DNA of 64,000 nucleotides from Turritopsis dohrnii (Eukaryota; Cnidaria; Hydrozoa; Anthoathecata; Oceaniidae): the NCBI GenBank assembly GCA_027922465.2, contig BQMF02000299.1, positions 186,001 to 250,000 of the forward strand, in the 5' to 3' direction. Positions 22,167 through 62,134 of the stretch are shown piece after piece. Under the pieces are notes generated by a model. It searched no databases. It was not told where the DNA came from and worked only from the letters and a program-made list of their open reading frames with translations. Every line of letters begins with the position of its first letter. The first letter of the stretch is position 1. The translations under genes were made by a program, and so were the position numbers.

Positions 22167-22316
22167 TTCCAATTTTCAAGCTGCAAAAAGGCTTTCACCA
22201 CTGTCAACATATGTCAAATCTGCCATTATGCCCGGTTGTTTTCACCCACTAAAATTCGTAACCCGTGACAATAATAATGGCGCATTAATATGACGTTAAA
22301 CCGAATCCGAGAATTC

Positions 22317-34840: not shown

Positions 34841-35769
34841 GAGCCATTATCTGTAAGAATCAGACAGAGCCTGGAAGTGATATCCTTAAATTTTGCTTAT
34901 TTTCTGATATTATGATCAAAACTATGTATACTGACATCAGGTAAAATTTTTTTTGAAAATTCTTGTCGGCTGCCAAGATTTTGGGCCTTAAAGTTTGGCC
35001 CATTTTTGTGGAAAAAGCACCTACAGAATGAATCTGCACTTTTAAACATCAAATTACCAAGACATATTGCTCTGAAATATATTTCAAGTGCATTTCATGG
35101 AAGTATGGTGTAAATTCCTCCATGCCACCAAATTTCAGGGTCCTTAAACTTTTTGCTGTCTAGAAATCATGGCCCGAATACTTAATTTTTTTGCTTTTCG
35201 ACTGTATTTGGACCTAATTATCTGTTAAGGGAAAGGAGTGCACATGATTGTTTTTGGTGGGATTAAAAGTGCTATGCCTCCTCTTCAAATTAATGGAAAA
35301 AAATTCATGTGCACACAAGGGCCTGGGGAGGAGCGCTTCCGCAAACTTTACCATTTTGATAAAGTTTACCAAATGCCACGGCCCATAATGGCAGCGGCGA
35401 AGGTCTTGTCATGTTGGTTTAATGTTATTTTGGAAGATACTTCAATGCCTTATCATATTCACAAAAGAAAATCATGTGCCCTCTTTCAGACTAGTCACAA
35501 AATAAAGTTGAAATTCACTATTTTTGCTGTACCGGAAATTGAAAGAATTCCCTAGCAACCAGCAATTACACTTAGCAACGATGATTTTACAGCTTGAAAA
35601 ATGAAATTAGGTTGTTGTTAACCACTTAAGCATATTTGGAGAAGCTTAATATTATTCATGTACCATGCATAGGTAATGCTTTGAATAAAAAACAGCCAAT
35701 ATTTGAAAAGTCTGGGTATATACCCAGCAAAGATCCATTTTCCGGTTTGTAAACAACTTTTTAACAATA
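34841..35769 (+). repeat. Left inverted repeat of the TTAA element
   Basis: Pairs with 39588-40511 at high identity. It contains a 105-codon open frame (35238-35555) also present in the other arm with three changed residues; it has no ATG start at the ORF edge and is probably non-coding. Confidence 0.93.
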
Positions 35770-35785
35770 ATTTTACAAGAACTTC

Positions 35786-38700
35786 TAAGAATGTTTAGCT
35801 AACTGAAAGTCTTCACTGTGCATCTCATAATCATTGCGATTGTTCTTCGGTCGAACAGGATTACGCATGCGGAAGAGTATAGATGCCCTTTCATACCAAG
35901 CGATATCTTTTTTTGGCCAACGGAAGGTGTTATTTGTTCCACATTTTTCCATGCATCGTACTTTTATGTCATCATCTAGAATCTGATAAAAGAAACCAGT
36001 TCCATTAAATAGGTAATCTTAGATATAATTATATTGATTTTCTTGATGACTACTTATAATAGTAAATTATAAGGGCTAAGCTTTTCACAACGTTCATGCA
36101 AGTATACTTGTACAAACCTCCTCTACTGTTCCTGGGTACCAATCATCATCATATATTACAACAACCCAGTCTCCTACCACTACCTCATTAACAGTGCTAA
36201 TCTCCTGTGCTATTCTCTGTATGGTCTCCACTTCCTCATAGCTGTCACGATTATAGCAAGCATCATTGTCTTCTCCCAAGTTTTCATCATCAATGGCAAT
36301 CGAAATACCTTTTCTCTTTTGTTTGCTCCATCTGGGAAAAATAGAATTTGATCCTTATGATTTCTGTACATTACCTTAATTCAAAGTTATTGCCATTTTA
36401 AATACTAATTTAGTCTTTATCTTATCTTGAGAATAATGACCGAATCTGTTTTCTTGTCACATATTCAGTTGGCAAAAGATGCTTCCTTATCATAAGGTGG
36501 GCTTCCTCAGGACTGACCTTTTTACCAGATTCTTCACCAGCCATGAAAATTTCCAACAGTATACTTTTCTGCTTAGCTGTATATCTGAAATGCTTGCGCA
36601 CAGGTAAGGCCCATCCTTTCGTAGAACAGGAATGCATTCTTCTATCATCATAACTGTTGACAAGTATGGAAACCGAAGTTGACGAGCTCTGCTGAGACTC
36701 TGCAACTATACCTTTCATGTGGCATACAAATGATTTTTTAGCTCGGTCTAGCATCGAGTTAGTGCCAACCGTGGTATGTTGCTCAGACAGCTGGTGTTCT
36801 TCCAGATCTGCATCATTCTCAAATGATTGTCTGCAGCCAACCACTGGACAAAACTTGAAGCTGTTGATCATTCTATCCATCCTTGGTCTTTTATTGCTAG
36901 AAATATATGAGAACTTGCTTGTTGCAGTAAATTCCTTCACAATGGAAGCTCCCGATTGAAACACTACTTCTGAATACTGCCACTTTTTGCCTTTACCAAT
37001 GCCAAAGTATCGCCACATCAACATATAATCTTCATGGAACTCAAAGGAATGATACTGCCTAATTTTTGCTATTGTTGATGAACCATGCAGCTTCGTTTTC
37101 GTTTTATCAATAATAACTACAGAAACATCCGCATTTCGTATGCCTTTTCCATGATGTAATGCATCATAGATATCTTCTGCTGCCAAAAGATCATTGCCAG
37201 CATCAATGTAACTTCTGATGACACACTTGGCACCAGCTGACTCACGATCACACTGATCCCTTCCACGACAGGGTTCGTTGTAATCATATCGTTTTAAATG
37301 CATCTGTTTTCCTTTACATAACTTGTGCAGTGCCTCACAATAAAAATTCCCATGATACCCAGATGCATTGTCTGACTTTGCATACAACTTATTTATGCTT
37401 GGAAATTCTTTTCTAACTTTATCAAGGAAAATCTCTGCCAAACACAGTGAATCAGATAAACCTTGGTCACATCTTGTAAGGGCAGAAAAATACACCTTTT
37501 TCATCAGGGTTCTGTTATCTGGCTTGTGAAAAAGAACATCTGCATGAAGGCTCGTGCCCTTCTTGCCAAAGTATTCCTTTTGGCCTTCTCTATATTTTGT
37601 TGGTAAAACCTTTTGGCAATAGTCTTTGAGCCAGAAAGCTGTCTCATCATCTAATTCATCAAAGGCCTTGATCTTAGCTAGGCGCTGCTCTGCATCTCTA
37701 AGCTGATGATTTATATATCCCTTAACATCATCTATGGCCATCTTAACATCATACAATAAATCTTCATCTTCCTTTTCAGCTGCAAGTTTCTCCATTTTTA
37801 CTAAGGCTGAGAAAAGGTTCTGGCAATCATTGCAATCAAGGTCATCAACTAAACTCTCTTCTACCAAATCATGGTCTGTTACGTCAGAAAGAGCAAATGT
37901 TGTAGAATGGCTTTTGTAATTTGAGGAAGGATCACAATGTAACTGAAAGTTGGTTTTAAGATAACGTTTTCCATTTCCAAGATCTTGTACAATGGCCTTT
38001 TCCATATGCTCACCTGCTATTTTTATCAACATTGCGAAACCACTCATTCCAGCTGCTGTCATATCATCTAGGCCAGCCAGAGCTTTCCTTTGGGATGGCT
38101 TGATTCCTCTCAGTATTCGCCACAAAGATTGGTCAGAAAGAGATTCATATGATAATTCACCACAAATTTCTTTATAATAGGAAATTGCATGACTGTAGCG
38201 CATTGTTAAAACAGCATTAGCAACTCTATGTTCTTCTCCACTATCGAATACTATTTTGTTGACCCCATATGCTACATCTTGAATAAATCCACTTGAAAAC
38301 AGAAAATCAAGGAAATGTTCAATTTTTTCTTTTGAAACCCTGTTCCTCGTGTGTTTTTCTTTCTGGGGAAGAACAAGCTTTGAATTTTCCTTTTGCAATT
38401 TCCGTGCCTGGTCTACGCTATACTTGGAGCAGTTAAAATAGTTCATTATTTCTTCTTTGGTATATTTTTCATGGTTGACTAGTGTGAGTATGATTAACTG
38501 TCCCAAAGAATCACTTTCAATATACTGTCTCAATAAAACTATTAGGTCATCTGGTACATGTTGACTATCATCAAGTGGGTCACGCAAAACCATTTCAATG
38601 AAATCTTGTGACTGTCCAGGTGCTATAGCTTCTGCAAATTTTTTCTCAAGATTCTCTTGCATTCTGTTAAACTTTTGCCGTAACTTCTGCTTAGTACCTT

Positions 38701-39479
38701 CACTTAAGGCTGATATTTTCTTTTGCTTAATCTGATATGATATGGGACTAGTAACCAAAGAGGTGCTTAATTGTTCCACAGCTGTTGCTCCTCTGTGAAT
38801 ATCTTCTTCTTGAATAATAACCTCTTCTGGCACGTAATCTGCATCATAAGGGGTGCTGTTTCGAATTGGTGACTCTTCCAAAACTTGTAGTTTGTTAATA
38901 TTGGTTGCAAGTTTGAGGTGTTTGTAACAAAATGCAGATCCAATCGGCAGTGTTGAATTGGTGTGCTCATTGTACAAGGACTGGTCGTGTTGGTGGTTTT
39001 TTTCCATAGCTGTATTCATGATCTTGGTGCTGGCATCCATTTGGAGCCTTCCATCCAATACCAGCAGAAAAGCGATGATATGCACATAGTTGCACATCAG
39101 CAGGCAATACTTTCTCTAGTCTATTTTCTATCAGAATTTTCTCATTATAACCAATCGAAGATTTGAGCTAGATATATAAAAATGCACTAAAAAAATCTAA
39201 ACTGACATTACCATGTGAGAAAAAATGGTAAAAAGTATGCAGTATGTATACCTTCAAAATTTTGAAGTGAGAAGAAATATCTGCATCAAGTTCTTGAACA
39301 CTATACATTCCATCTCTATTCCAACGTGTAAATGGACCACATAGCTTATCATTGAAACAAAAGCATTTTTCATAAGGGTTCTTTTTTTTCTCTTTTGACA
39401 AGGCCATTTTCTGACTATCTACTATCTTGTAAGCGGAGTAGAATGCTCTGTTCTCACAGATCTGATCTACGGAAGCCAT
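35786..39479 (-). pseudogene. Putative transposase of the TTAA element
   Basis: Minus-strand gene in four exons: 39479-39252 (ATG, MASVDQIC), about 39154-36425, about 36333-36118 and 35978-35786. Exon 2 begins LEKVLPADVQLCAYHR and then changes frame near 38990, so this copy is slightly damaged. It then runs for about 850 open codons. Features: a helical Lys-rich region, SLWRILRGIKPSQRKALAGL, LYAKSDNASGYHGNFYCEAL with a likely catalytic Asp, RYDYNEPCRGRDQCDRESAG with another Asp-rich motif and a C2H2 finger (CPVVGCRQSF ... HQLSEQH). Exon 3 has VGDWVVVIYDDDWYPG, a Tudor/chromo-like beta strand pattern; exon 4 ends in CMEKCG, FRWPKKDIAWY. I have seen this architecture in cnidarian and mollusc hypothetical proteins but cannot name its superfamily. 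RNase-H-fold DDE activity is inferred. Confidence 0.75.
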
Positions 39480-39587
39480 TGCATTGCACAAATTCCCACA
39501 AAATATGCTAAAAATAACTTTTCAAATGTCATAAAGCTAAATTTAGTATTATTATCATTGCACAGATAGCTATGTGATATTTTTTAA

Positions 39588-40511
39588 AAAGTTGTTTACA
39601 AACCGGAAGATGGATCTTTGCTGGGTACCCAGACTTTCAAATATTGCCTGTTTTTTATTCAAAGCATTACCTATGCATGGTACATGAATAATATTAAGCT
39701 TCTCCAAATATGCTTAAGTGGTTAACAACAACCTAATTTCATTTTTCAAGCTGTAAAATCATCGTTGCTAAGTGTAATTGCTGGTTGCTAGGGAAATCTT
39801 TCAATTTCCGGTACAGCAAAAATAGTGAATTTCAACTTTATTTTGTGACTAGTCTGAAAGAGGGCACATGATTTTCTTTTGTGAATATGATAAGGCATTG
39901 AAGTATCTTCCAAAATAACATTAAACCAACATGACAAGACCTTGGCCGCTGCCATTATGGGCCGTGGCATTTGGTAAACTTTATCAAAATGGTAAAGTTT
40001 GCGGAAGCACTCCTCCCCAGGCCCTTGTGTGCACATGATTTTTTTTCCATTAATTTGAAGAGGAGGCATAGCACTTTTAATCCCACCAAAAACAATCATG
40101 TGCACTCCTTTCCCTTAACAGATAATTAGGTCCAAATGCAGTCGAAAAGGAAAAAAATTAAGTATTCGGGCCATGATTTCTAGACAGCAAAAAGTTTAAG
40201 GACCCTGAAATTTGGTTGCATGGAGGAATTTACACCATACTTCCATGAAATGCACTTGAAATATATTTCAGAGCAATATGTCTTGGTAATTTGATGTTTA
40301 AAAGTGCAGATTCATTCTGTAGGTGCTTTTTCCACAAAAATGGGCCAAACTTTAGGGCCCAAAATCTTGGCAGCCGACAAGAATTTTCCAAAAGATTTTT
40401 ACCTGATGTCAGTATACATAGTTTTGATCATAATATCCAAAAATAAGCAAAATTTAAGGATATCACTTCTTTACTTTGTTTGATTTGTCTGATTCTTACA
40501 GATAATGGCTC
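39588..40511 (-). repeat. Right inverted repeat of the TTAA element
   Basis: Inverted partner of 34841-35769. Confidence 0.93.
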
Positions 40512-42210: not shown

Positions 42211-43789
42211 TTTTATTTCCAGTTCAAAGCTCCTCTCTGCTGGAAAATTCAAAACACAACAGTAAACATCCCTCTTATCCTTTATGTATCCACTAATACT
42301 AACTGTGTTTAACTAAATAGATACTATTTTAACTTTACCTTTCAATACCAATTCACATCATCATGATAGTAAACAATATTGATCATGTTCTGTAGCCATT
42401 ATGAAACACTTCTAAACTCTTTTACTTTCTGTATTTCATACCTGTAAACAAATTAATAACACTCGATTAACTTTCCAGCATACTTTCCTATTGTAAAGAT
42501 ACACTTTCTCTTTGCTTTCTACTGAAATTCCAATACCATTTTTATACAGTGAAAGTCATAAAAATGCTTTCTTCGTAACTTCATAACTGTGGAGCCATTT
42601 TGAATTAAATAAAATAAGGAACAGCAACTTCGTTACCAAAACAAATCATTAACTGCTTGAGGGACATGCATCTTAATGATTTGATCGTTTTAACTCTGTT
42701 TTTACTCTCTTTTAATGCTGTATTTACAAAATCCGTTTGACTCATGTACTTACGTATATTACTTTATATCTTTTCCAAACAATTTCTCTCCGAAAAGAAG
42801 TAAAACCATTTTCTTCACCAATGTAAATAAACAGCATCCTTTCTGCAGCCATTTTTAAACAACTTCAACTTCATCTACACTACTCTACTGCTGCACTCCC
42901 ATAACTATTTGATAACTATAAAAAGAAATACGTAAACAGCTCGTAAAATTAAAAATAGACTTCCTTCATCTCGTTCTTCGTTTCGTTTTCCTCTGAAAAA
43001 ACCTATATATAAAAAGCAACATCTGTTTAAAAACTCACCTAAGCATGTGGTTATACCTGTTCTTTTATTAATCTAAAATAAAATCTAAAATACAATAACA
43101 ATAAAAGTTTAACAATAAATTGATAACTAAAACGTAAACAAACATTTAAATACATTTAAATACTAACTTGTTCTTCTATTAATCAAAAATAACAGTTTTA
43201 TAATAATACCTTTTGTTCGTTCGATCTTTCTGCAGCTAATTTTTAAAAACTTCACTGCACTTCTTCTGTATATCTAAATATGATTTTTCATTGTAAACAA
43301 ACAACTAACCCGTGTTCTTTTATTAATAAGAGTAAAAGTTTAGCAATAAACATGATAATAAAACGTTTTATAATAATAACAATACCTTCGTGCATACAAA
43401 CCTGTGTTTCTTCGTCAGTTCTTTCGTCGATTTGCTGCCTAAAACAATCAAATTTAAATTAAAATATTCGTATACAAAAAGAAACACGTCTTCTTCGCGA
43501 AGTTTCTTGCTCACGAAATGATCGTTGACAAATTTCGAACGAAGAAGATTGCATTGCTCGCACTCCTCCAAAGACGTTTTTCGGCTGATTTCCACTGCGC
43601 AAACCAAAAATAACAAAACGGAGGAGCATATACTAATCGCGGAAAATCAAAAAAAGTGTTCTCGCCTCTACGTGGTTTTACGACAAAAAGGGAAAAAATA
43701 AGAAGGATTTGACCGTGAAAAAAAAATAAATATGTCACTCTCTAAAATAAAAGTGGGATGCACAATCGCGGATTATTATAATAAGATAA
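42211..43789 (+). repeat. Dispersed repeat B, copy 2
   Basis: Direct-orientation copy of 5374-6512, with extra blocks near 42940-42965 and 43100-43600. Ends in the same GCGGATTATTATAATAAG motif and is followed at once by a minisatellite. Non-coding. Confidence 0.85.
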
Positions 43790-45164: not shown

Positions 45165-45167
45165 GAA
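45165..45167 (+). repeat. Target-site duplication GAA, left of A1
   Basis: GAA precedes TAGTCAGGG and follows the other end at 62132-62134. The X-copy-1 site at 41.28 kb carries a single GAA (as TTC on the plus strand) at the corresponding point. Confidence 0.82.
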
Positions 45168-45634
45168 TAGTCAGGGAGCAATTGGAAATTTTTTTTTATT
45201 TTAAGAGGGACATTGTAATGATTACTTGGCTGAATCAAGTGCTATATGAGGATGACAAATCCATTTACCGGACATTTGAAAAGTACCAATTTCGTCAATC
45301 CGGACCAAATTTAAATATTGATGACGTCATCAATAAATCGAAAAACTTTTTCGACTTTTTTCATATATTTATACATCAATCGAAAGCTAGTTAAATTCTA
45401 AGCATAATGAAACTTATAACTATGCGATAAAAAAGAAAAGAAACGGAGTTACAGAAGATTAAAGAGCTTTTGATGACGTCACACTTTCTTCCGGGTTTAC
45501 AAAAAAAAGGTAAAAAAGGTAAAAAAAGGTTTGTCAATATTTTTTTCAGATAGTAATTGAAAAATACTAACAGTTATTTAAGAAAGAGTGATATTGAAAG
45601 TCAGCAAGAGTCGAAAATTTTATAAATTCACGAT

Positions 45635-48600
45635 TTACTCTTCAAAATCCGAGACATCAGAACTATCAGAAAAAGAAGAATCTTCCGTTGAAGATAAATC
45701 TGATGTATCTAATGTGTTTTCACATCCATTACAACAACACATGTCTGTGCATTTAAGCCCATGACTTTTGCAGGCACAATTATTTGCCAAGCATTTATTA
45801 CGGCGGCAACTGCACGACAAGAGATTTAAAACCTCTTCGGGGGCCGGTTTGCGTAACATCCATTCGATAGACAGTTTATCTTCTTGAATTTTCCAGCCAT
45901 GGTTTACTGTAATATCTGCGTTAAGAGCTCGTTTGACAATTGCAGTAACGTATGATACACGCTTGCAGTGGCAAAGTAAAGCATCCCTGGTTGGTGGCAA
46001 GCGTTGTGGTTCCGGAGATGCTTTTCCACTTAAAAATTTCCGGTATCGTGCTTCATCAGTGTTGGAACATTGGACACCATATAACTTGCACACAAACTGT
46101 TCAATTGATGAAAAGAGATCTGCATCAAAGACAAAGGAGTTACCAAGCTTTGAGAAAACTTCAAGGAATTCACCACTATTGGATAATTTCTCGAATGCGG
46201 CAGCTTTCCCAATCCCATAAAATGCGCTGGTGTAATCATTTCCTGTGAACGAATGAAAGGCAGGGAGGGAAGAACACAAATTATCGCCTAATGTTTGGGC
46301 CATTTTACGTATATCCAAAATTCTTCGTCTATCTTTTACTCCAATTTGTATAAACATTGATGGTGAAAGAGCATTGTTATAATATAAAGCATACAATGGT
46401 TTGTCACTATCAACAGTAGTGATCACGACAAACTTTGCTTGAAATTTAACTTCAGCATGTTTGGTACACAAGAAAACCTTAGTGTCTGCTTCTTCTTGAT
46501 TGGTTTGCAAATCATCACATTCTTCACATAAAACCTAAAAATATTATTATTGAATAAATTATTAGTCTTTGGTTATTGGTTATTTCTTTCTTATACAATA
46601 ATGTTATGTAAATTGTTGGTTCATTTTACCTCATCATTGTATGAGATCTTGAAGAATTTTGAACCAACATTGATGAATATAATCTTTGTTCTGATCAGTT
46701 GGTTAAACTCTCCACTTTCTGACCAGTCTTTCAACAGAAATTCCACAAGTTCAAGTTTGTTTTGAGAATCAAGCATGTATTTTCCCCATTGTTTTGGACA
46801 TTTCTGGTCACGGCTTCGGATCTTAATTCTCAAAGTACCTTGTGACGCTCTTCTGCTCCGTTCATACGATTTAATCGAATTGTGAGAATATTGGTCCGTA
46901 ACAAAATACATGACATTTCCTTTGGCAATTCTGTGTATGATATTAGCAGATATATCACCAAAAGTATTTAATTGAGCAGTTTTGAGTTGCTGCAGTATGA
47001 CCATCCCATCAAAGATATGAACTGCATCACGCAGAGTTTCAACATTATCTATCTCGCACATTTTCTCTACTGCATCTAAAATGACATTATTACTATTATT
47101 AAATAAAAAAGTATCAAGTAAGTTATCAAGTAAACATAACATATAAAAGTATGGTTATCTTTGAGATATAAAGTATTTAATACAAATTTACAAATGCGTT
47201 TAAAGCATACATACCTAAGAGTTTAGATTTAGCAGTTTTTACAAGACCTCCATCAGGTAAGCCAAAGCACCATGGGATTGAACTAAGCGAATAGGACAGG
47301 ATATTTTCCAATGACAATTGACCGTTACTTTTTGCCAGAGCCAACAGTCTTCCGAAAATACTTCTCTCGGCAGCTAAGGACACCGTTTTATCTTTAGTTT
47401 TAAATTGATGTTTCGTTTTGTTGTGGGAGAAGGTTTTCAGAGAACATTTCTTGATTGGATCATAGAAATGTGTCGAAGATGTTTTGATTCTGTTGTTAAC
47501 AAAATCTTGGAACGAGGTTTCTCCTACTTCTTCCGCCGTCAACAAATCATTCTTTATTTGATCAGTTGCTATGACACCAGAACAAATGTTAATTAAATCG
47601 TCATTATGTTGAAAAGGATTGCCCCAGTCGGTTATAACCTGCGTCACTCTCTCTATAGAAGCGAAATCAAATTCGATTCTGCCTTGTTGAAGGAATTTAG
47701 GCTTATTTATCGGTTGGTCTGCTTCGATCATCCTTTTGAACTTATCTACAGACTTGGAAGCAACATGGCTGGTTAGTACCCATCTTTGTACAGTAGATGT
47801 TGCTGTTGAAAATCCAACTATGCCACCACTCGTCTTTTGGGACCGATTGATAGTTTGCTCGATACACTGGTCAGTTGGAACTTTGTTGAATTTTCCATTT
47901 GATCTTTTTACAGCAAAATTTCCTTCCCTGAAGAAATTCATCGAGAAAAATAATTCAAAATATTAATTTAGCTTAGGCTAAACAGATTAACTGACAAATA
48001 ATTTTTTAAAAAGCTTTTACAATAATGATTTTATATTAAGTACTTACATAAATTGTTTGTAGACATCAGGGTGTGTATTGGGAAGGTTGACCATTTCGGA
48101 CCAATACAGCGATGCAATCCTTGAATAGTTTTGTCGGTCATAGGCAAACAACCATGGCAACATCATGCGTGTAGCATGCAAATGAGATTCCCAATCACCA
48201 AGTTTGAGAGATCGTTGGTATAGAAATAAAATATTCATCATTTTTAGAAAAGAATACCAAAATGCAGACGTAGGACCATTGTCTTGGCATAGAGATTTTT
48301 CGTGTTCCGTCACAAGTTCTGAAAATTCTTCGTTTGAAAGAACACTGTCGAGGTTTTTCCAGAACACCTAAAATTTTTAACGTTTTTATTAATAAATGAT
48401 ACACACCCATACCAAAGACATATTAAAATAAAGGTTGTGCGGAATTGTAAAAATATATGTGATAGTTACCTCTTTGAGACAGTCATTAAAATATTTTGAA
48501 GTAACTACTTTTTCGAGAGTTAGAGTCGCTTCTCCTTTGTGCGTTGAAATATAACTTTGCAGACTTTGAATTCGTAAGCGTGTCAACGAGTTGTACAAGT

Positions 48601-50851
48601 ATTGAAATACACGAGTGCATCTATTATAATGTTTTCCTGATAAAACCTTTTCGACGGCTGATTGACCTATTGATACAATGTTATAATTGATTAGTATTTA
48701 ACTTTTTATTATTCATTTAACATTGGATTATATTTATGTTTTTTACCTAATATGTCACTTTCTATGATCCAATCCCTTAGTCCAGCATCACCAAATCATT
48801 TCCCAATAACAGCCATAAATGTCATAGCCATGTGAAAACCCCCAAGACGAAGGACGATGAAAGATTTTAAATCATAGTGTACCGGATTGGTTAATACTTC
48901 AACGGCTTTAGCATAAATTGCTTGATCCACTACAACATCTGCGGAGGAGAGTCCTATTTTTTCAGCTTTAGATTTCGATTGAATAAGAAGTTCTAAAATA
49001 ACATCCATATTAGTCCGCGAAGCGTTGATAGCTGGCAGATAGCCAACTTCGTGAACCCTAAAAGTTATTGATATTTTAATTAATACTTTCGGTTTCAATG
49101 ATTTATTTCGGATCAATAGAAGAATATAAAATAATAACCCTTCGTCCAAATGTTCATCCAGAATTAAATAGTTAAAACCAGTCCAATTTGGAAGGTCTTT
49201 TTTGTTGCATTGAAGTAATAACCAAAAGAAGTCTATCATACTCGAAATGTCCAGTACCGTAGTCGTCACTTCAGTGGAAAACTTAAACATAAAAAAAGGA
49301 AATAAGAATTGCGTAAACATTGTCAACATAAACTAAAAGGTGGAGATACTTATACGTTGTATCTTTTATTTATGTACTTCCTTAGAAAAACAAACATTGT
49401 AATACCTCTAGACCATTGAGATGTGCTGGTCCTTCACACTTTTTGGTTATATACTTTGAAATCGATGTCTCAATAGATTTAAAGCTTCGTCGTCTTTCTC
49501 TCTTTTGTTGAGTATCGTGAACTGTACTGTGATTTGTCTTAGATTCTTCAGATTTTAGTTGTACAATGATACCATTTGTTACATGCATAACTGCGCCACT
49601 TAGTGATTCTGGGTTTATGTCGTTATTGTCCCATACAAAAGTAGCAAAAAAGGATCGTTTGATGATCGATGGAACGAATGATCTAGCGTTTTGGTTGGAA
49701 ACAGCTTGCTCTGCAAGGTATGTCTCTAAAATGCTTATGTCTTCATTGGATATACCCAAACCACATTTATTCAACCATTGAACAATCTCCTTCGAACCAG
49801 TTTTTCTTTTAGCACACCACGACAAAAGAACACTCTTTGCTGTTTTATGCTCACCACCAGTTGCGTTGTAAATGACATCCTGGCATAACATGTCGACGAT
49901 TTTTCCTTTTCTTTTGCTAGAAGAGCTTTTCTTAGCAACAATAGATTTCATAAGTGTTTCAAGAGTTTCTGGTATTTTCGTTTGACTTTGTATTAGTTCA
50001 TCTTCTTTTGGGGGCCATCTTTCAAACGATTTAGGGGATTCGTTAATTTCTTCTCTGATTCTTTCACCAACAGCTATCGTTTGTCTTTTGAAGTCTGGTT
50101 CCTTGATCTTTTCGGACAGATTAGCTATTTTTCTCATTAAAACTTCAACTATCTTTCCTTTTTCGATCTCGTTGTTAAATATAAAAGGTACTCCGTTATC
50201 CGGGTGCCAAAATATCACTCTGTCATTGAATATATTTTTAACTTTCTCGCGCAAAACTCTGATATCTGGAATTGCAGTATCTGGTGCAGCATCTTCAAAA
50301 ATCTTTAATAGCTCTGCCACAGGTATAACTTCAAGATCAACAAAAATCTTTTTCTCCACGGCGTCAAGAAAGTTTTGGAAATCGCCAGAAGTAGATGAAG
50401 ACGATGAAGGCGATAATTTAAGCGTACTAGGTTTGGTATATAATGAATAACAACTTCTATGGTATCGTAATTCTAATGCCACAATTGATCTCCAATCAGC
50501 TGCTGATACGTAAGCCTGTAAACGAGGATTGTCTGCTTTCAAGTTTGCGTATTTTTTCAATGTTTCCGCGGCGTTTTTTGTAAGACACATAGACAATTTT
50601 TCGTAGTTAGTTTTTTTCCATTTAGAGCGATTACAAATACAGCAAATGTTGTCGGCCAAGATAACTCCTGAAATTCAAATTGGACATTTTGTCAAACACA
50701 AGGTTTCATTTGGCGCGTTTGAGAAAGTACAATGCTCACCTAGTCTATTCCTTTTCCTTTGGGAGCGTCTTTCCTCAAAATTTTCTACGTTTTCATCATC
50801 ATCTTTGCCTTCTTCTTTTCCTTCATTTTCTGACTTTTTCTTTTGTATCAT
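45635..50851 (-). pseudogene. A1 gene: Academ-like transposase with FEN/XPG-like nuclease and CXC domain, one TGA
   Basis: Exons (minus): 50851-50740, 50668-49406, about 49288-49143, 49059-48747, 48666-48470, 48367-48048, 47927-47215, 47075-46630, 46534-45635, all joined by GT...AG with compatible phases. Start at ATG 50851 (MIQKKKSE); the apparent start at 50659 is a TTG inside exon 2. N-terminus: ICCICN ... LRYHRSCYSLYT zinc module. Middle: VVVDQAIYAKAVEVL, FIVLRLGGFHMAMTFMAVIG, GKHYNR, a likely RNase-H-like core. Exon 9: NQEEADTKVFLC, VDSD and SFTGNDYTSAFYGIGK, matching the acidic motifs and GxDY...GIG loop of FEN1/XPG nucleases, then PPTRDALLCHCKRVSY. C-terminus: a CXC domain (CSCRRNKC to CCCNGC) as in tesmin/MSL2, a DNA-binding fold. 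TGA at 48796-48798 in exon 4 may derive from CGA. Upstream 5' UTR splicing (donor near 51055) is cut by A2. Confidence 0.85.
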
Positions 50852-51082
50852 CAAAAGTGACTTGGAATGGGTATAATTGTCATAACATTTCTGGTGAAAT
50901 TGTAAGTTCGCAGTGCTTCCGCATAGTAAATTAGATAAATCAGTATCTCCTCTTATTTCACTAAATATTTGAATGAACAGGGAAAATCAAAAACTTTTTA
51001 AATGATGACTAGTAAAGCTCATTTTAAAAATCATAAAAACGAATTTACTTACCAAGCACTTTTAGCTGTAGTCAATGATTTG

Positions 51083-51085
51083 TTT
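51083..51085 (+). repeat. Target-site duplication TTT, left of A2
   Basis: TTT precedes TAGACCAGG; TTT follows the other end at 59328-59330. Weak alone because T runs are common here. Confidence 0.65.
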
Positions 51086-51442
51086 TAGACCAGGTCACTG
51101 TGGAGCCAAGTACCACCTAGAGGGTGGGGAATTCTCTTTAATGGTTTTGAATTGGTATATACCTATATTTTTGAGAATGAGGTGTCAAATTTGCTGGGGA
51201 GGTGGCACTGGTCCAAAAATGGCCTTGTTTTAGCGGTACATGACCTGGGTTTTATTCAAATTTATAAGGGTTTCTTAAGAAAACAGAAATTTCTTATCTT
51301 GCAAACTAGACCACTGGGCCTTAATTATTTAAAAAATTTCAAATTTTTTATCAGGGGGGTTTGTATAAAAACTTTAGGAAGTAGAAAAAATACGTATATT
51401 TTATGAAAACATAAATTTTTTTATTATATCAATATAAACAAG
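51086..51442 (+). repeat. Left inverted repeat of A2, outer part
   Basis: Matches 59327 down to about 58915 in inverse; a stretch of about 60 bp near 59020-59085 differs between arms. Confidence 0.92.
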
Positions 51443-53292
51443 ATTCGCAAAAATGCGACTATATATTTCCCCAAAGTTGCAAACATTTTATCAATTATTG
51501 TGTGTACATTGATAACCATGAGAAATATGTATCATTAAATAATTACAGTATAACTACCATCAACCTGATACTCAGATTGAATTTAATACCACAAAAAAAC
51601 TTACTTTGAACTTATTATGATATGAAGTTGTTCACGGTCAAATGATAAAGGTTTCTCTTAAAATTTTTTGCTGAGGAGTTAAAAAGTGACTGAGAAGTTA
51701 CTATGGACACGTAGCTAAAATGTGACTAATATTTCCCCTTAAACAACTGCATATCAACAACCCCATCAATGTGTAAGACAATTTCATCATAACATAATAT
51801 GTATGATCTTTATTGTTGCAGAAGCTTGACAAGTTTCCTTTACACCATAAAATCACGGTAAACAATGTAATTTGAGAGAACACTTGCTTTTTGTAACTCG
51901 GATAAAATTATCTTACAACATGATACAATCAAATTTGTATACAGGTTTTCTGTACAAAAGAAGAAAAGAAAATTGTCAAACCTAATACCACAGTATACTT
52001 TCGGGTAGACATATAAGCAAATAACTATCGAAAGCAATCAAAATCTCTACTAACAAATGTTACGTGTAACATTTCAAATTAGGACAGAATAGTTATTTTC
52101 AAAAAAAAGATGGGCTTAAAGTGACAATTTATAAAACTAAATTCAAGTATTCAGAATAAACATCTATGTTCAAAAAAATATGTTCACACTCATTGTTTAT
52201 TTTGTGGTAAAAACGACCTTCATATATAAATCCCAAATGGAAAAAAAATTTTGGTAGTGAAAATACATATTCATAACCAAATCACTACATAGCTGAAGTA
52301 GAAGTTCGTGTTCCGGTTTGATTTAATTTACAGACTGTCATTTGTATTGTGTTTTGATTTACGCTCGTTGTTCATACAGGAAAATTGACAGTATATAAAT
52401 TTTGCAAAATAAAATATGACATACAGTATCAAAACAGTATACGTGACCATAGCCAGGAGACCCAGCCACATTCGTTGAGTAAGCAGGCTAAGAGTAGATG
52501 GGTCTCCTGGCTAACGTGACCATGGAATTCATCCATAGTAAACTATGTTTCTGTTGTTGGATTAAATGACTATCCAGGGAAGCACACTCGACCAGATTCT
52601 TTCAAGTTATTATGTGTCTCAATCCTGTGTGTGTTTTAAAATATTATACGTAATTGGTTTTCTGAACTTCTTATTGCATATACGACATCACGTTTTTACT
52701 TGCTGTTTTTGTATGTACTTTTTGAATTATCAAACTGATTGAACTGATTGTTCTCCACATGAAATAGGTTTCCTTTGTGGTTGGTACATCGTGCTTTCAG
52801 TTCAGTTGGGCTACATTATATATCAGGATGGAAAACAAAAATAAATCTTCAGCCTGGCTATTGATAATGAATTTTCACCTTTGCACTGAAACCACAGCTT
52901 CAATGGTTTGCTGTTCGAAGCAAATTAATTACCAATCATAACATTTATCAACAAAAACAAAACATCATTGATATATCAATTCTTTCTGGTTTTTCCACGT
53001 TCATTTCATTCAAAAACACTGAACTAAAACGATTCATTTCCATCATTTAACATCATTTAACGCTTCATCTATTGAATCATTTTAAAAGCTAGCAGAAAAA
53101 AAGCAAAAATCTTCCACTGCACTGACTGAAAAAAATGGCGTGCTGTAGGCTAGCCTCTATTCTTATCTAGTTTGGCTAGGCGAAAATTCAATACCGAACC
53201 GAGGCTATAAAAGTGAACGGAGAAGGAGGAGGAGGAGAAGGAGAAGGAAAATGCCGGTTTTAACATATATTTCGCCCTATGGGGAAATATAT
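51443..53292. mobile_element. 1.85 kb non-coding insertion in the A2 left inverted repeat
   Basis: The A2 repeat is interrupted here; AACAAG is present on both sides (51437-51442 and 53293-53298), as expected of a 6-bp target duplication. ATATATTTCCCC occurs near the left end (51461-51472) and, inverted, at the right end (53281-53292), so short inverted termini are likely though the left has 18 extra bases. No coding capacity. Contains a palindrome (52450-52512: AGCCAGGAGACCCA ... TGGGTCTCCTGGCT). Superfamily unknown. Confidence 0.8.
53219..53250 (+). repeat. GGA/GAA purine-rich simple repeat
   Basis: Run of GAGAAGGAGGAGGAGGAG-type triplets inside the 1.85 kb insertion. Confidence 0.85.
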
Positions 53293-53298
53293 AACAAG

Positions 53299-53600
53299 GT
53301 TTTCTTAGCTTAAACATGTCTAAAGTCTTAGATTCATACACTTAGATGAATTTTTTATATCTCCTTGAATAAAGGTAAGTAAAAAATTGTTTTATTTTAT
53401 CTTACAGGGGGTAATGTAGCTTTTTCAGGGGGCAAAATTGTGATAATTTGACACAAAAAATCCTTTCTCTTCCTCAACTCATAAAAATGTGGCATGGAAA
53501 TTTATGTCAATGTGATTTTTGATTAATCTTGGTGTCAAATATGCTTTCAGGGGGTAATTTGGCTTTTTCAGGGGGTAATGTAGCTTTTTCAGGGGGTGAA
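53299..53600 (+). repeat. Left inverted repeat of A2, inner part
   Basis: Inverse of about 58613-58914, nearly perfect. Contains three CAGGGGGTAATNTNGCTTTTT units plus isolated CAGGGGG motifs, arranged symmetrically in the other arm; possible transposase-binding sites. Confidence 0.95.
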
Positions 53601-53729
53601 ATGTTAAAGAATTACTACAGTATGTATAAAAAAAATAGAACTCCATATATAGTTATTTTTTGAACAAAATTAGAACTAATAATAGAGTATTGCTAAATAA
53701 GTCTCTAAAATATTATTTTTAATAAAACA

Positions 53730-56700
53730 TCAGTCAGAGTCATCATTTTCTGATTCGTAATCATCATCTTCAAGATCTGAGACACTTTCAACTGCTTCAT
53801 TGAGCAGAATGTCAGTTATATCGTCTGGGAAGGCATAATCGACCCATATAGGAGTTGCATCGTCTTGCCAACCATTGTCAGTTATTGGTGGTGGATTCAC
53901 TACGCTGTGTAATGATAATCGCCAAAGTTTCGCAACATAATTTGCACGTTTACAGTGAAGGTAGAGGACTGATTGACATGGTGGAAGTAATGAAAGGTCG
54001 ATTATTTTTCTTTGGCTTAAGTACTTGCTTTCAAATAATTTAAACCTGGCAGCATTAACAGATTTCTCCTTCTTCATTTTGTAAAGACAACAGGTGTACT
54101 CTTCAAGAGTTGAGAAGAGCGGGCTATCAATCTCTAAATCCCAAGATGTGCCTAGCTGACCAAAAGCACGTATAAATTTATAATTTGTTGACAGCGCTTT
54201 CCAACAGGCTGGTTTTCCTTTCCTGAAGAATGATGAAATATAATCATTTCCAGTATAAGCATGGAAACCAATCAAAGCTAGTTTTAATTCTGGAGATGTC
54301 TGAATTGAGCTTAACCATATACCTTTCCTTGCTTTTCCATTACCATAGTCAAGGAATATTCTTGTAGGATCGAGCATACCAAGGGCCAGTATGAGAATGT
54401 CAGTGTCTCCTGACGGTGATCTTAAAACTACACTATCAATACCATTTTCGTTTAAAGAATGATAGCAGTGCAATATCACTTTCGTATCAGCTTCTTCCTG
54501 ATCTGAAGATAATTCATCAATAACATCAACGCCAGTTTGTATAAGACGATGAGTACGGCAATCTTGAGAAATGTATACAGAAGAGCAACCCAAGATTTGC
54601 AACACTTTAGAGTAGTTGTTGTTTAATACTTCGGTTATTATTTCGATCAAACGAGTTTTGTTTTCACTATTTGACAAAAATCTGTTGAAATCAGACGGGA
54701 GCTTTGATTTTGGTGAGGAAATTATAACCTTAGAAGAGTTGCCACGTGAATTTCTTTCCATGTTTTTGATAGAGATGTTTCTGTAGGTATCTGCTACTAA
54801 GTCGATCCGTTTATAGCCTTTTGGTAGTGTTTTTATGAATTTCCAAACAAACTCTTCGTATGTTTTTGGGAGCTTGGTCATTGTTCGAATCTGAGCCATG
54901 ACATCGATCACATAAGACATTTTGCTTATCTGCATTGTTGCTTCCTCGTTTATCGCATTAGATGGAACAATCTCACTTTGCTTGAACAAGATCGACAAAA
55001 GCTTACTCTTTGATGTTTCACGGCGTTTACCATCTCCAGTTGCTAAACTCAAAGGGATCGGCGAAAGAGGATATGTTAAAGCATGAGCCATATCGATTTG
55101 TCTTTCATGTAGTAGCGAGAAAGATAGCAATGAACCAATAATATTTCGATTTACCTCAATATTAGTTGTTGATGAATTGTGTTTGATTTTGAAAGACTTA
55201 CTTGTATCTTTGAATCGCTTTTGTTTACACTTCTTTATTGGGTTGTGAAACTTCTCGGGACCATAGATTCAATTTTCAATAAACTCTTTTGCTTTATTGG
55301 CACCATTTTCCTCTAAAGATAGAATTGATTCGGCTAGCTCATCATCAATTGTGGTTCCTGAACTGATGTTGTGCAAGTTCTCATATCCAACACCAAATGG
55401 GTTGATAAATTCTTCTTCAAGCACGCGGATACCTTCTGTTATCAGATTTTCGGATTTCAAGATCTGTGATGGTCTCATAGGTTTGTACATAAATGAATCC
55501 TTTGAGATACCTGCCATTTTCTTTAGCTCACTTGTATTTTTGGCCTGATCAGGTCGATTAAGACACCACTTTAGGACTGCTTTGTTTGTCTGATGAAAAA
55601 TTACGTATACCACCTAAAAAAGAAACTCATTGTTTCATATAAAGAAGAACTCAATTTAATACTTGAAGATAACAATAATATATAACCTCTATCCTGCCGT
55701 CTTAGCATCACGATTAATTGTTTGTTCACCTCTCTGATCTAATGAAGTTCGTAGTGGATAATTTGTTTGTGCTTGTACTGATAAACCTCCAGAATCAAGT
55801 AACTGCTTCAAGCCTGGAAAACGCCTTTCAATGTTTTTTAAACATTCAACATACCAAGTACCATATCGTGCATAGTTAAACTTATCAAAGGCAAAGTAAT
55901 ACGGTAATTCTCGCTGCCAGGCATCAAGTCTCATTTCAAAGTTGTTGGTCTGTACCGCAGTATGTATTTGATGCTGTATCTTCATCAGTTCTAGGTATTG
56001 TAACCAAAATTGAGCAGTTTTACCCATTTTTTCCATCTTTGACTGATTTGCGAAATCTTTCGTATTGATTATATAATGATTGAAATGTAGTTTCATCGGC
56101 AGTAACAAAAAGATCTGGATCTGCTGCTATATCATCAATTCTTTTTGATATGGTTGGCTTCACCTACAAAGACAAAATAGTTTGAAATAAATTAACACTT
56201 TTAATTATATATATGAAACATTTAATGACTTTCAAGTACTTTTGAAACAATATGGTACTGACATTTTCAGTTTCATGCCAAACTTACCTCTGCAAGAAAT
56301 CTTTTCATCAACAATCGCTCTAGCACTTCAGAGAAGTTCATGTGAACGAACCATGCTCGATTGTACTGCGTGCCAGCCAGGACTCCATTTAGACTACCAC
56401 TAGAACAAATGTTTGCTTGAAAGATAGCATCTTTGAACCCTGATGACTCAACCAACATTCCAATTATCTGTTAACAAAAATACATATATATAACTCTCAC
56501 AGAAGTCTTTGTAGTGTATTTGACATCTAATTTGACAATTAATATCTATAGTACCCGTAAAAATAACGTTAATGTTATAATGACACTCCTTGAATAAAAA
56601 CCTAATCAGCCAGAACAAAGTGGTAATATATCTTATCTACACACTGAAAGGCTGCTATTCCCAACTAATAGTAATAAAAAGTGAAAGATATCATTACCTG

Positions 56701-58566
56701 AAAGTTTTCCTTCATGAAATGGAAGTCACCCAGGTGAATTAGTACATTATCATAAACATCTATGTTGGACCAAAGGAATTTGTACGCATTGATAGCCTCT
56801 CCTACATCCAAAGAGATATTAACATATGGCATGTTGGACGACTCTGAGAGTGATTTCAAGTATGACATATACGTAGAAATAGTACGAAACTCTGTCACTT
56901 TACTAGTTATAGGAGGCAAGTAAGTTTCTTGTGTCTTTTCCAATAATTTATTAGGCTCTGATTTCTGACGATTTTTAAGTAACCAGCCAGGAAAATTGGG
57001 AAGAACTTGATCAAAGGAGTTTTGTTTTCTCAAGTACAACCAGGTAAACAATGAACAGTTGAAGTTGCTAGGATCAAAAATTGCCTGAGTCTCATTTATA
57101 AATATGTTAGTAAAGCCTGGAGGTTCGATTGATGTATCAATGTTGAAATTAGACGATTCAATAACTTCTTCACTGGTGAACTTTCTCTTTTTTGTTCTAG
57201 ATATTGGTACATGCGAGTAATCAATAGATCTACCATTTCTTTCTTGAAATGCCATAAGATGTGTAGTATTGACAGCTCCAGCACCACTTTGTCGTTCTAT
57301 TTTAACGTCAAAGTTGTCAACCCAATATACAGTTACAATGATCTCTTCCCCATTTGGTTTGATTGGAAGTATACTTGTTTCTTTACTTCGTTTTATCGTG
57401 GCTTCAGACAAAGCTGTCTCAATTTCACATGATAAGTTATATGAGATGCAGTGACCTAATTTGTTTGCGATGAGTATCGGTTGTTTCTGACCTGTCATGT
57501 TATGAAGACCAAGCGCAAAGAGATAATGCTTTGGTGTAATGACTTTGCCATTACTTATGTTGAATACGAAATCGGCGGTGATAGAATTTATTAAACGTTT
57601 TGCTTTTTCCCTGGAGTCTACATCATGCTTTCCTGAGGTCAAAAGATGAGTTAAAAATATTTTCACGGAATCTGGTGGATTTCCATACTCTTTGGTGATT
57701 GTCTCAACTGTAGGTGGCCAAGAATGTTCAGGAATATTATTACAATATTCCATGATATCATCTCTCAGTTGCCTTGCAACTAAACGAACATTGGCCATTG
57801 GTTCAAATTCTGGTCTGGCCTTTGTGAAAATGTCATTACTAAAAACAACCTCAGCACTTTTTCCACATGGCTGTACATAAGTCAGCTGTCCTGGATATTT
57901 TTTCTCTATACGCATCTTTAGCTTATGTCTGTACCGACTGTCTCCAGTATTAAGACCATAGATCTCATGCAAAAGATTCATTGATATTGCTTTCCCTTCT
58001 CTCATCAGTTGATATTCTAGAAACTCTGTAACAGCCTCAAAATCACCTTCCTCTTGAACTTCTTTGCTTTCTCCATCGCCCTCTTCATTCTGTTCTTGTT
58101 GATGTAGGTCCTCTTCCTAATAAAAAAACATTCAATCTTTAGGGTCCTTTTTTGTGACAATTAAGATATAAATGATACATAGCCTATGGATAAAAGGTTT
58201 CTTTAGTAATCATTTGTTTTCATTAAGATGAACATATCATCTTACCTGATTTCGACTTTTTCTTCCAAATCCTTTAGTAAAAGATGTTCTGCAGTGTTCA
58301 TGCATCTTGAACTCTTTTGCAATAAGGTCTAGTTCTGCTATTTCTTGATACATTTTTGGTTCTTTTTCCTTAGCAGCTGCTTTAACTGTCTCTACAGCAT
58401 CATAAGTAAGAATGGTTATTGGATAGCACTTTTTTCCATTTCGTTGAACTCTGCACTTTTTACATATATTGCACTCTGCAGGATAAATCCAAGAATTTTG
58501 TCTTTGTATACTATTTTGTTCTCTTGAACTCCTTCTACGTTCTTCAGATTGTAAGTTTTTATTCAT
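53730..58566 (-). pseudogene. A2 gene: Academ-like transposase with FEN/XPG-like nuclease, frameshifted
   Basis: Exons (minus): 58566-58246, 58116-56698, 56467-56288, 56163-about 55689, 55613-53730, roughly 1,400 residues. Start ATG 58566 (MNKNLQSEERRR). N-terminus: CNICKKC ... MHEHCRTSF zinc module. Exon 2 ends VNISLDVGEAINAY and IHLGDFHFMKENF, the counterpart of the A1 DQAIYAKA and LGGFHMAM blocks; here the Asp of LGDFH is kept where A1 has Gly. Exon 4 aligns with A1 exon 6 (MRLDAWQRELPYYFAFDK) but shifts frame near 56045 and again near 55690. Exon 5: QEEADTKVILHC, SGDTDILILALGML and AYTGNDYISSFFRKGK, a clear FEN/XPG-like set, then LPPCQSVLYLHCKRANYV. It ends in an acidic tail and has no CXC domain, unlike A1. 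TGA at 55269-55271, where CGA would fit. Confidence 0.85.
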
Positions 58567-58612
58567 TATTATAATACTATTACTATTTATCTGAAAAAAA
58601 CAAAAGATATAC

Positions 58613-59327
58613 GTTAAAAAAAGCTACATTACCCCCTGAAAAAGCCAAATTACCCCCTGAAAGCATATTTGACACCAAGATTAATCAAAAATCACATTGA
58701 CATAAATTTCCATGCCACATTTTTATGAGTTGAGGAAGAGAAAGGATTTTTTGTGTCAAATTATCACAATTTTGCCCCCTGAAAAAGCTACATTACCCCC
58801 TGTAAGATAAAATAAAACAATTTTTTACTTACCTTTATTCAAGGAGATATAAAAAATTCATCTAAGTGTATGAATCTAAGACTTTAGACATGTTTAAGCT
58901 AAGAAAACCTTGTTTATATTGATATAATAAAAAAATTTATGTTTTCATAAAATATACGTATTTTTTCTACTTCCTAAAGTTTTTATACAAAACCCCCTGA
59001 TAAAAAATTTGAAATTTTTTTTTTAGAAAATCAAAATTTAGTTCATCAACAACACCCCTGCCAATTTTCAAGCTTGTTGGGCAAATAATAAAGGCCCAGT
59101 GGTCTAGTTTGCAAGATAAGAAATTTCTGTTTTCTTAAGAAACCCTTATAAATTTGAATAAAACCCAGGTCATGTACCGCTAAAACAAGGCCATTTTTGG
59201 ACCAGTGCCACCTCCCCAGCAAATTTGACACCTCATTCTCAAAAATATAGGTATATACCAATTCAAAACCATTAAAGAGAATTCCCCACCCTCTAGGTGG
59301 TACTTGGCTCCACAGTGACCTGGTCTA
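58613..59327 (-). repeat. Right inverted repeat of A2
   Basis: Continuous copy of both left-arm parts. Carries the CAGGGGG-type motifs, here as CCCCCTG. Confidence 0.95.
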
Positions 59328-59330
59328 TTT
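59328..59330 (+). repeat. Target-site duplication TTT, right of A2
   Basis: Matches TTT at 51083-51085. Confidence 0.65.
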
Positions 59331-60117
59331 GTAAATCCTCTCAAAGGTAAATTTTGTGCATCATACATAGCATAATGAAAAACGCATTCATTTTTTGCTT
59401 TCTTTTTAGGTGAATGCTGCAATCGTAAAAAACTCAAGCAGCTGATGACATCAAAAAATGTCAAACTGTGCAAAGTGAGGGGACAATTTAAAAACCACAT
59501 ATTTGTCTTTTAATCACATCAAAGAATAAAAAAACATTACTCTGCACTTAAAAAAATCTTTAACGCCAATGTTATTGTCAAATAGAATTATTAAAAACAG
59601 GATTCCAATCCAAGTAACTTCATCCGCCATCTTAATAAACTTTCGAATGTTTCTATCGGCTGTCAAATCAGAATATGAAAACAGAGACGGAGGTTCAGGA
59701 GTTGTTTTTGCTAATCAATATAAAAGAAAAACAAAGACAATCGTAAAGGCTTTCTTGCTTACGCAGAAATCCAATTAAAAAGTCAAACATTAAAATGAAT
59801 TTTAATATTTTGTTAATTATTTTTTTTTTGAAAAACATCTTCTTTATAAAAGTAAACTTTGAGAATAACTTTTATGTTAACCCCCTGAAAGGTTTTTTGC
59901 ATCAACGATTGGAAAAACCATCAGGAAATAGCACATCATTTCCGAGATCGCACAGTTTTCTTCAATTTGGGTTCAAAGTTCTTTAAATTGACGTCAATCG
60001 AAAACCAGGTTTGTGTGCTTAAAAGTACAAAAATGACTTTAACCTAAGTTTCCAAAAATCCCGTATCGTTTGGGAATCAAGCAAACGGTTTATATTACGG
60101 TATTTATTACATTAAAG
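59331..60117. other. A1 internal DNA right of A2, mostly non-coding
   Basis: The continuation of A1 beyond the nested element. A possible short plus-strand exon follows TTTTTAG at 59409 (ECCNRKKLKQLM, Cys-Cys start), which could be the zinc module of the right-hand gene, but it lacks support. A minus-strand ATG in good context (GATGGCGGATGAAG) lies near 59624. Otherwise unrecognised. Confidence 0.4.
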
Positions 60118-61125
60118 GTTCACTGTGATGAAGAAGTTAACCTCGCTACTGATCAGGAAGAAGCTGATACTAAAGTTTTCCTCTGTGGCAAACACGCCGA
60201 AACCACTTTCGAATCTGACAAAGTAATCATAAAGACTGTGGACAGTGACATATCTATTTATGCGCTCTACTTTCAATTGCAATTGGAAACCAAGCTTTAT
60301 GTTGAAACTGGTTCTGGCGAAAATCTTCGCACACTTGACATCAAGACCTTTGCAAGTAAGCTAGGTGAAGGAAACTGCAAAGTTATGCCGGCCTTACACG
60401 CTTTCACTGGAAATGATTATTCTAGTGCTTTCCACGGTATTGGGAAAGTTAAGGCCCTCCGGTTAATCACGAAGGTGAAGAAGTTCAGGAAGGCATTCAA
60501 GCGAATTGGCGAGAGCTTTGACTTCAACGCCAAATATTTTCGGGTCATCGAAGAATTTGTTTGTCTTCTATATGGCATTAAGGGTTGCATGGATGTTAAC
60601 GAAGCACGATACCTGAAATTCTTTTCGTGCAAAAATGGTAATACAGAGCCGCAGAAGCTTCCGCCAACGAGAGATGCACTCCTTCAGCACTGTAAAAGGG
60701 TATCATATGTTACTGCGGTGATCAAGTTAGCCCTTCAGAACAACCCTTTCATTCCTGATCCTGATGGTTACGGCTGGACGAGATCCGGTAATTCGCTCCA
60801 AATCAAATGGATGCTTCTTCCACCAGCGCCCCCACAAGTACTGCAACAAATTTCTTGTGCTTGTAAAAAGGGTTGCAAAACAAGGTCGTGTTCGTGCAGG
60901 GCCCACGGAATCAGTTGCACTGAATTTTGCAAATGTCAAAGCTGCACCAATCAGACAGCTGATGATGATGACATAGACGGTCATGAACATGATGCAGATG
61001 ATGATGTTTACGATGAAGATCAAATGGCTGATGCTTGTGAGGAAGAAGTCGAAGACATTGATGATGAAATTGATTTTCTAATTGAAGATGAAAAATTCGA
61101 AGACATTTTGAAGGATTTGAATTGA
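60118..61125 (+). pseudogene. Lone last exon of a second Academ-like gene in A1 (FEN/XPG-like plus CXC)
   Basis: Open from an acceptor (CATTAAAG at 60117) to TGA 61123-61125, about 335 codons, in the opposite orientation to the A1 gene. Motifs in order: DQEEADTKVFLCGKHAE, VDSDISIYALYF, HAFTGNDYSSAFHGIGK, PPTRDALLQHCKRVSYV and a CXC domain from CACKKGC to CKCQSC, then an Asp/Glu-rich tail. By eye it matches A1 exon 9 at about half the residues, so the two are old relatives and not arms of a recent inverted repeat. The acceptor phase corresponds to that of A1 exon 9. No upstream exons are recognisable, so the gene is truncated, or A1 originally had two genes with their 3' ends facing the termini. 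Confidence 0.8.
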
Positions 61126-62131
61126 AATGAATACTGATCGTATTTTTTTAGTATTTCCTTAGGTTCTGGATGTCCACTATACTGATTCTTTCAAAAAAAT
61201 TTCATTTTTCGAATAAAATTTTAGGCCAAAAGTACGTATTTTTCTCATGAGCTATGACGTCATTCTCTTAACTTTAAAGTCTCATAACTTTTGATAAAAC
61301 GATTTTAAGATATTTGTTGTAATGTTTTTATTGATCTCCTTGAAAAAATGTGTCGATTGATGTATAATTTATCAAAATTTGACGTCATAAAATTTTCACT
61401 TTACCTTGTGACGTCATCAATCAGCATGCCCAGTGCGCCCGGTAAACATTTTTTTGGGTGCAGAGTAAGTCAGTTGAAATCAGTAGGGTCTAGTTGCTAT
61501 AAAAAAACTGCTATGTATTTGTCCCAACGTTTTCCAAGTTTTTGATGTTATCAGCTGCTTGTCTATAATGACAAGAAAAACATTAATTGATAAAAGTAAA
61601 ATAATTGTTTTTAAGTCGTGAAGATTGTATTTTGCGATTGATAGACGCGTGAAAAACGTAAACATTCTATTTCTCCACATGTCGTTCGATTTGAAAATAT
61701 ATTTTTCGGGACGGGGGTTTGTAAGGCGAAATAAATGTTATGTCTGACTAATAAACATATTTATTTTTTGCACCAAAAACATATTAAAAGATTTTTATAA
61801 ATTTTTGACTTTTACAAAAAAAGCTTTCTTTAAATTTATCAAAATAATTTAGTTATTTATACAAATGAATAAACATCGAACACCCTGATTTATAATAATT
61901 TCATTCCCGTGCAAAAGAATGATTAAATAAAAAATGGTGGATGAAAGCTGGAAAGATTTGAGAAAATTGTCGAACATGTTTTTATTGATAACTTTTTATA
62001 TTGGTGGAGTTTTAATGTCCAGTAAAGATTTTTTGTTAGCAGATACATGTGTCTAACAGGTTTTCAACTTTTTACATTGTCCCTTAATATGTTGTAAAAT
62101 CATATTTTTTTTTCCAATTGCTCCCTGACTA
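61126..62131. other. A1 right subterminal region
   Basis: Non-coding. Holds TGACGTCA at 61255, 61380 and 61409 and CATAACTTTTGAT-like blocks resembling those beside TGACGTCA in A3. Ends in TTTCCAATTGCTCCCTGACTA. Confidence 0.7.
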
Positions 62132-62134
62132 GAA
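62132..62134 (+). repeat. Target-site duplication GAA, right of A1
   Basis: Matches 45165-45167. Confidence 0.82.

Follow-up and report, generated by a model that had tools for sequence, protein, structure and literature searches.

Positions 45168-62131 of a 64-kb window (the whole stretch of DNA analysed here, 64,000 nucleotides of contig BQMF02000299.1 from the hydrozoan Turritopsis dohrnii) very probably hold an AcademX-like cut-and-paste DNA transposon, one of the nuclease-bearing Academ type, which is now defective and into which a distant relative, likewise of this type, has inserted. Intact members of the family are predicted to encode a single chain composed of N-terminal Cys motifs, a D/D/E transposase region, a FEN/XPG nuclease and, in most relatives seen, a C-terminal CXC module. 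The copy indicates that a FEN/EXO1-fold nuclease with its conserved acids belongs to the regular equipment of a large family of transposases present in many animals, and this raises the question of whether a transposase supplies its own flap nuclease in order to complete integration. The locus also illustrates how related transposons nested in one another can pass for a single giant element. The outer element was delimited by the following features:

45168..62131, unstranded: outer transposon including the nested insert, with a 21-bp terminal inverted repeat and GAA flanks
45168..45188, + strand: left terminal inverted repeat, TAGTCAGGGAGCAATTGGAAA
62111..62131, - strand: right terminal inverted repeat
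45165..45167 (left copy) and 62132-62134 (right copy): target-site duplication GAA

The left terminal repeat is the exact complement of the right one (21/21), and 21 is also the longest perfect inverted match between the 500-bp stretches around the two ends, a length reached in 0/200 dinucleotide shuffles (mean 10.05, maximum 14). The triplet GAA is present on both flanks of this one copy of the outer element as a 3-bp duplication, and the TAG ends with a GAA duplication claimed in a preliminary description of the locus were thus upheld. When the terminal 12-mer was searched with zero mismatches it was recovered at the two ends alone, while allowing up to two mismatches added one extra site, as chance predicts. 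Between these ends, on the minus strand, lies the transposase-nuclease gene of the outer element (gene A), for which the closest point of comparison is the Hydra vulgaris LOC124811086 protein (P0001), a full-length relative with the CXC pattern that, unlike gene A, is a predicted protein without an in-frame stop:

59328..59404, - strand: exon 1, 5' part, cut by the inner element (E 0.097 to P0001 on its own; start position provisional)
51053..51085, - strand: exon 1, 3' part, with a gtaagt donor at its end
50740..50960, - strand: exon 2
49406..50667, - strand: exon 3, with Cys pairs and the first transposase Asp (DNND)
49139..49281, - strand: exon 4, whose end is the one weak donor among exons 2-10
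48747..49057, - strand: exon 5, with the second transposase Asp (VVDQA) and an in-frame TGA at 48798-48796
48470..48666, - strand: exon 6
48048..48367, - strand: exon 7
47215..47927, - strand: exon 8, with the putative catalytic Glu (DQCIEQT); the nuclease domain starts near the exon end
46630..47075, - strand: exon 9, with the nuclease acids IFDGM and VTDQY, which by their order we take to be FEN1 D34 and D86
45635..46534, - strand: exon 10, with EEAD, DSD and GND of the nuclease and the CXC domain

Exons 2-10 together comprise 1,504 codons (counting the terminal stop) with one in-frame TGA, which falls where the relatives have a coding residue. The alignment of gene A to P0001 has 724 identities in 1,487 residues, with all eight junctions that link the nine exons collinear. 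The nine-exon gene proposed earlier is corrected to a predicted model of ten exons (the split exon 1 plus nine). With exon 1 interrupted and a stop within exon 5, gene A is disrupted twice and this copy is dead, so that the notion of a self-contained mobile system is not supported. The interruption of exon 1 is caused by the second transposon and its parts:

51086..59327, unstranded: inner transposon with ends TAGACCAGG...CCTGGTCTA and a TTT duplication (51083-51085 / 59328-59330)
51443..53292, unstranded: 1.85-kb insertion in the inner left inverted repeat, with AACAAG on both sides (6-bp duplication, by eye)
53730..58623, - strand: inner gene, of the same transposase-nuclease type as gene A and without CXC, with two frame breaks and a TGA at 55271-55269
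53730..55268, - strand: last exon of the inner gene, with a complete FEN/XPG fold

The inner element (one copy) is flanked on both sides by the TTT triplet and its inverted-repeat stretches of 245, 115 and 297 nt are 98-100% identical, the left arm being split by the 1.85-kb insertion (which wholly contains no open reading frame (ORF) of at least 90 aa) and 62 bp being present in the right arm alone. When the flanks were joined with one TTT, an open frame, LRGFTNKSLTTAKSA, was obtained that terminates at the gtaagt donor; it shares 8/15 residues with P0001 residues 34-48, and exon 2 continues the alignment by tblastn from residue 49. Since the similarity of the upstream part is weak, the case for nesting rests jointly on the open frame, the donor, the collinearity, the ends and the triplet, and 51086-59327 is read as a clean insertion of a separate transposon into exon 1 of gene A, with the exons in 53730-58623 assigned to the inner element and not to the outer gene. 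A single 17-kb element was rejected on account of the inner ends, the TTT duplication and the exon 1 frame opened by joining the flanks. The 'large' element of the preliminary description accordingly shrinks, 8.2 kb of it being the nested transposon: once the inner unit is removed the outer element measures 5,918 + 2,804 = 8,722 bp, and the apparent length is about twice the real size because a related second transposon was inserted inside. The inner gene is decayed (two frame breaks, one stop) despite the near-identical inverted repeats, and the element may have moved with an enzyme made elsewhere or have decayed recently, or the lesions may be assembly errors. Among the 31 relatives listed for the inner gene, the closest is P0149 (56% identity), from a record of the sea spider Nymphon striatum, a placement for which contamination or horizontal transfer is possible; the other species-named relative is from the hydrozoan Clytia.

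The D, D and E motifs are conserved, and the predicted secondary structure places a mostly helical stretch before the Glu of this putative transposase region. The nuclease of gene A was recognised by motif (EEAD, DSD and GNDY...GIGK in the last exon, 46534-45635), while structure searches found the FEN/XPG fold on the inner last exon and on the relative P0017, and a second-look structure search of the full model returned FEN-type rows. Fold and metal-ligand acids fit the FEN/XPG superfamily, and the acids are strongly conserved in the family. Identity to the EXO1, FEN1, XPG and GEN1 nucleases is ~9-14%; in contrast to them, the nuclease of this family is fused behind the transposase region. 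The proposal of a transposase-like chain joined to a FEN/XPG nuclease and a C-terminal CXC domain was therefore supported by motifs in the last exon and by the fold in two family members, and the PIN/FEN fold expected around the nuclease motifs appeared on the inner exon and P0017. Pfam yielded no XPG or transposase family, either for the exon ORFs or for spliced gene A, which also lacked a DUF6589 match. Nothing in Rfam reached the gathering threshold.

The last exon of gene A encodes a Cys-rich C-terminus in which the Cys pattern is kept. Its distribution was followed in 148 related proteins, 91 of which bear the EEAD motif (all four looser nuclease patterns were matched in 78 of these) and 68 of which extend at least 255 residues beyond it. 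The Cys pattern is present in 60/68; in the remaining eight the Cys-rich end is variant or cut in five and absent from two (P0038 and P0039), while P0087 ends in other sequence. The Pfam CXC cut-off was passed by two of seven relatives scanned (P0002, 27.7; P0015, 31.2), and among the relatives listed P0069 and P0100, at least, carry the UniRef name 'Tesmin/TSO1-like CXC domain-'. The fusion of nuclease and CXC is thus the rule, and the view of it as a novelty of this copy was rejected. The inner lineage is different: 22 of its 31 relatives carry EEADT, 19 of these reach at least 240 residues past it, and 17/19 lack the Cys pattern, the two that have it (P0175, P0176) being only 27% identical. 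At an identity of at least 32% none of 16 has the pattern, and all four nuclease patterns were matched in 12 of these 16 (P0152 and P0166 are without the first-Asp pattern, P0153 and P0159 without the DxD pattern). An acidic tail replaces CXC in many inner-gene relatives. The CXC module is consequently found in most but not all lineages seen, and it would have to be dispensable for the reaction in general if the inner lineage, which has none, moves by the same chemistry. TTYGAA, which we take to be the motif of the LIN54 CXC domain, showed no enrichment around the outer ends, with densities of 3.99 and 2.00 per kb vs. 3.44 overall.

The nuclease of AcademX is presumably of the XPG type. DUF6589 (PF20231), which we assume to be an Academ marker, was detected in several relatives here, 1/7 above the Pfam cut-off. 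None of the papers searched combined DUF6589 with transposon, or Academ with both XPG and transposon. AcademX is reportedly a lineage of the Academ superfamily (Kojima, 2020). In the available passages of PMC10045372, duplications of 3 or 4 bp are attributed to AcademX and of 9 or 10 bp to AcademH, linked to the encoded nuclease and helicase, respectively. Both elements are consistent with AcademX as characterised there: their duplications (GAA outer, TTT inner) are within the range of 3 or 4 bp, their ends are inverted repeats, and a nuclease is encoded, as recognised from the fold in the inner exon and in a relative and from motifs in gene A. AcademH shares the superfamily name, and DUF6589 as well if this does mark Academ; it was ruled out by the 3-bp duplication and because no helicase family was among the Pfam matches of spliced gene A or of ten exon ORFs drawn from the two elements. 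The available part of PMC3627910 mentions a RecQ helicase for Academ, and in that of PMC10294476 curated bivalve Academ consensus sequences have a mean of 5,565 bp, closer to 8.7 kb than to 17 kb. The passages at hand of PMC10045372, PMC10294476, PMC6431247, PMC12730594, PMC10799480, PMC9587614, PMC3627910 and PMC5753468 do not mention XPG or CXC in Academ, and it is not claimed that the CXC fusion is undescribed.

Several points weigh against this reading of the locus. The Academ-like label given at the outset is consistent with the duplication and the nuclease as described for the lineages, a comparison with descriptions and not with Academ reference sequences or trees. A triplet duplication is by itself weak (chance 1 in 64), protein support over the joined empty site is modest (8/15, with the E value above for the upstream part), and the exon borders of gene A were picked by hand as GT-AG pairs that preserve the frame. 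The transposase is known by motifs and predicted secondary structure alone. The nuclease fold was obtained not for gene A but for the inner exon and for P0017, whose identity to gene A is 34% in the part searched. Plain Foldseek gave a weaker result than the second-look search: the inner exon had XRN1 as top match (E 4.5e-6), and P0017 had FEN1 on top at E 0.012, with none at or below 0.001. Spliced gene A matched none of the expected Pfam families, its Cys-rich end scored 19.4 bits and that of the opposite-facing exon B 18.1 bits against TCR/CXC (PF03638), both below the cut-off of 23.5, and the inner lineage has moved without CXC.

The opposite-facing terminal exon noticed earlier is real and belongs to a second gene:

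60118..61125, + strand: gene B, lone 3' exon (exon B) of a paralogue with half a nuclease and CXC, 48% identical to the last exon of gene A and 55% to P0001
59435..59565 (+) and 61440-61561: arms of a diverged inverted repeat flanking exon B (63%)

Exon B is located between exon 1 of gene A and the right outer end, and the ~130-bp repeat around it is identical at 84/133 positions (stretches chosen from the inverted-repeat search). In a tree of 29 rows gene A, exon B and P0001 form one supported clade (100/98), inside which the branching is not settled. No further plus-strand match at E 1e-3 was found in the window for any of 44 query proteins, and exon B had no phmmer match in the PDB up to E 1. 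It is best read as the remnant of a paralogous element, brought in by insertion or by hybrid formation. Under the latter, the outer element would be a hybrid of two Academ-like elements (gene A on the left, a B-type right end) whose shared ends move as a unit, which would agree with the orientation of exon B towards the right end as a 3' exon, with its mere 48% identity to A, and with outer ends that have only 21 bp in common (among the 25 longest of 51 inverted pairs). We consider this rather unlikely, as exon 1 of gene A sits in the right part, which is then not purely a B element, and the diverged repeat around exon B would be explained at least equally well by an insertion upstream of gene A.

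How the fused nuclease might act can be outlined as follows. The D/D/E domain would free the 3' ends and join these to the target at positions staggered by 3 nt, after which the 5' ends of the element would still hold donor DNA as 5' flaps beside short gaps. Such flaps at gaps are the substrate type of FEN1/EXO1-type enzymes, and the fused nuclease could trim them, repair then leading to a simple insertion with a 3-bp duplication; CXC would probably bind DNA, perhaps the element ends. We hold this inferred flap model as an account that is plausible yet somewhat short of probable. The nuclease could instead act earlier, cutting the non-transferred strand at excision so that a full double-strand cut results, in the manner of TnsA, which cuts that strand at Tn7 ends during excision. 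FEN/XPG enzymes cut at single/double-strand junctions, in agreement with such a step, as are the two distinct conserved acid sets in one chain and the FEN fold; the data do not separate cutting before from cutting after strand transfer, and we regard the earlier cut as unlikely. Slightly less likely again is a nuclease dispensable for transposition that serves donor-site repair or blocks host processing: the accessory enzyme does vary among Academ lineages between nuclease and helicase (available passages of PMC10045372), but the nuclease acids are strongly conserved and the domain is retained in relatives with and without CXC. Our own broader proposal, offered tentatively and with a little less confidence than the flap model, is that the FEN/XPG domain is obligatory, for 5' flap removal or for the second-strand cut; one polypeptide would then perform both cleavages as a eukaryotic counterpart of TnsA/TnsB, and CXC-plus and CXC-minus lineages, one each represented here, would use different end-recognition modules. 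A functional role for gene B, as a short gene with a half-nuclease and CXC product that regulates transposition, is very improbable, since its 335-codon open frame from a plausible acceptor and its retained EEAD, DSD, GND and Cys pattern are set against a missing upstream coding exon (window search with the 44 query proteins), the lack of an in-frame Met ahead of the conserved core and the loss of the part bearing two metal ligands.

Other elements are present in the window. At 9343-12662 there is a 3.3-kb element with ~1-kb inverted repeats (97-99%) containing 154-bp tandem repeats; a weak tblastn match (E 1.9e-4) to relative P0009, in the N-terminal part of that protein, overlaps the ORF 11140-11619 (-), and therefore the element may be a further derivative of the same transposon type. 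The element at 34858-40485 has 851-bp inverted repeats (98%) and an 897-aa ORF (36422-39115, -) with one weak Pfam match only, under the cut-off. Another pairing of transposase and nuclease occurs at 18367-22175, where a DDE_Tnp_4 transposase ORF (+), a THAP-looking ORF (by eye) and a YqaJ-type nuclease ORF (-) were found; we take this element to resemble ISL2EU/Harbinger. A reverse transcriptase ORF beside an ORF with a GIY-YIG-looking stretch (by eye) at 30496-33075 is presumably Penelope-like, and a reverse transcriptase resembling those of long interspersed nuclear elements (2455-4989) has one frame broken by two stops, with Pfam RVT_1 in the middle ORF. Several direct repeats (83-100%) recur in the same order at 5415-6515 and 42308-43789, ~37 kb apart, and are possibly two copies of one repeat or the ends of one element.

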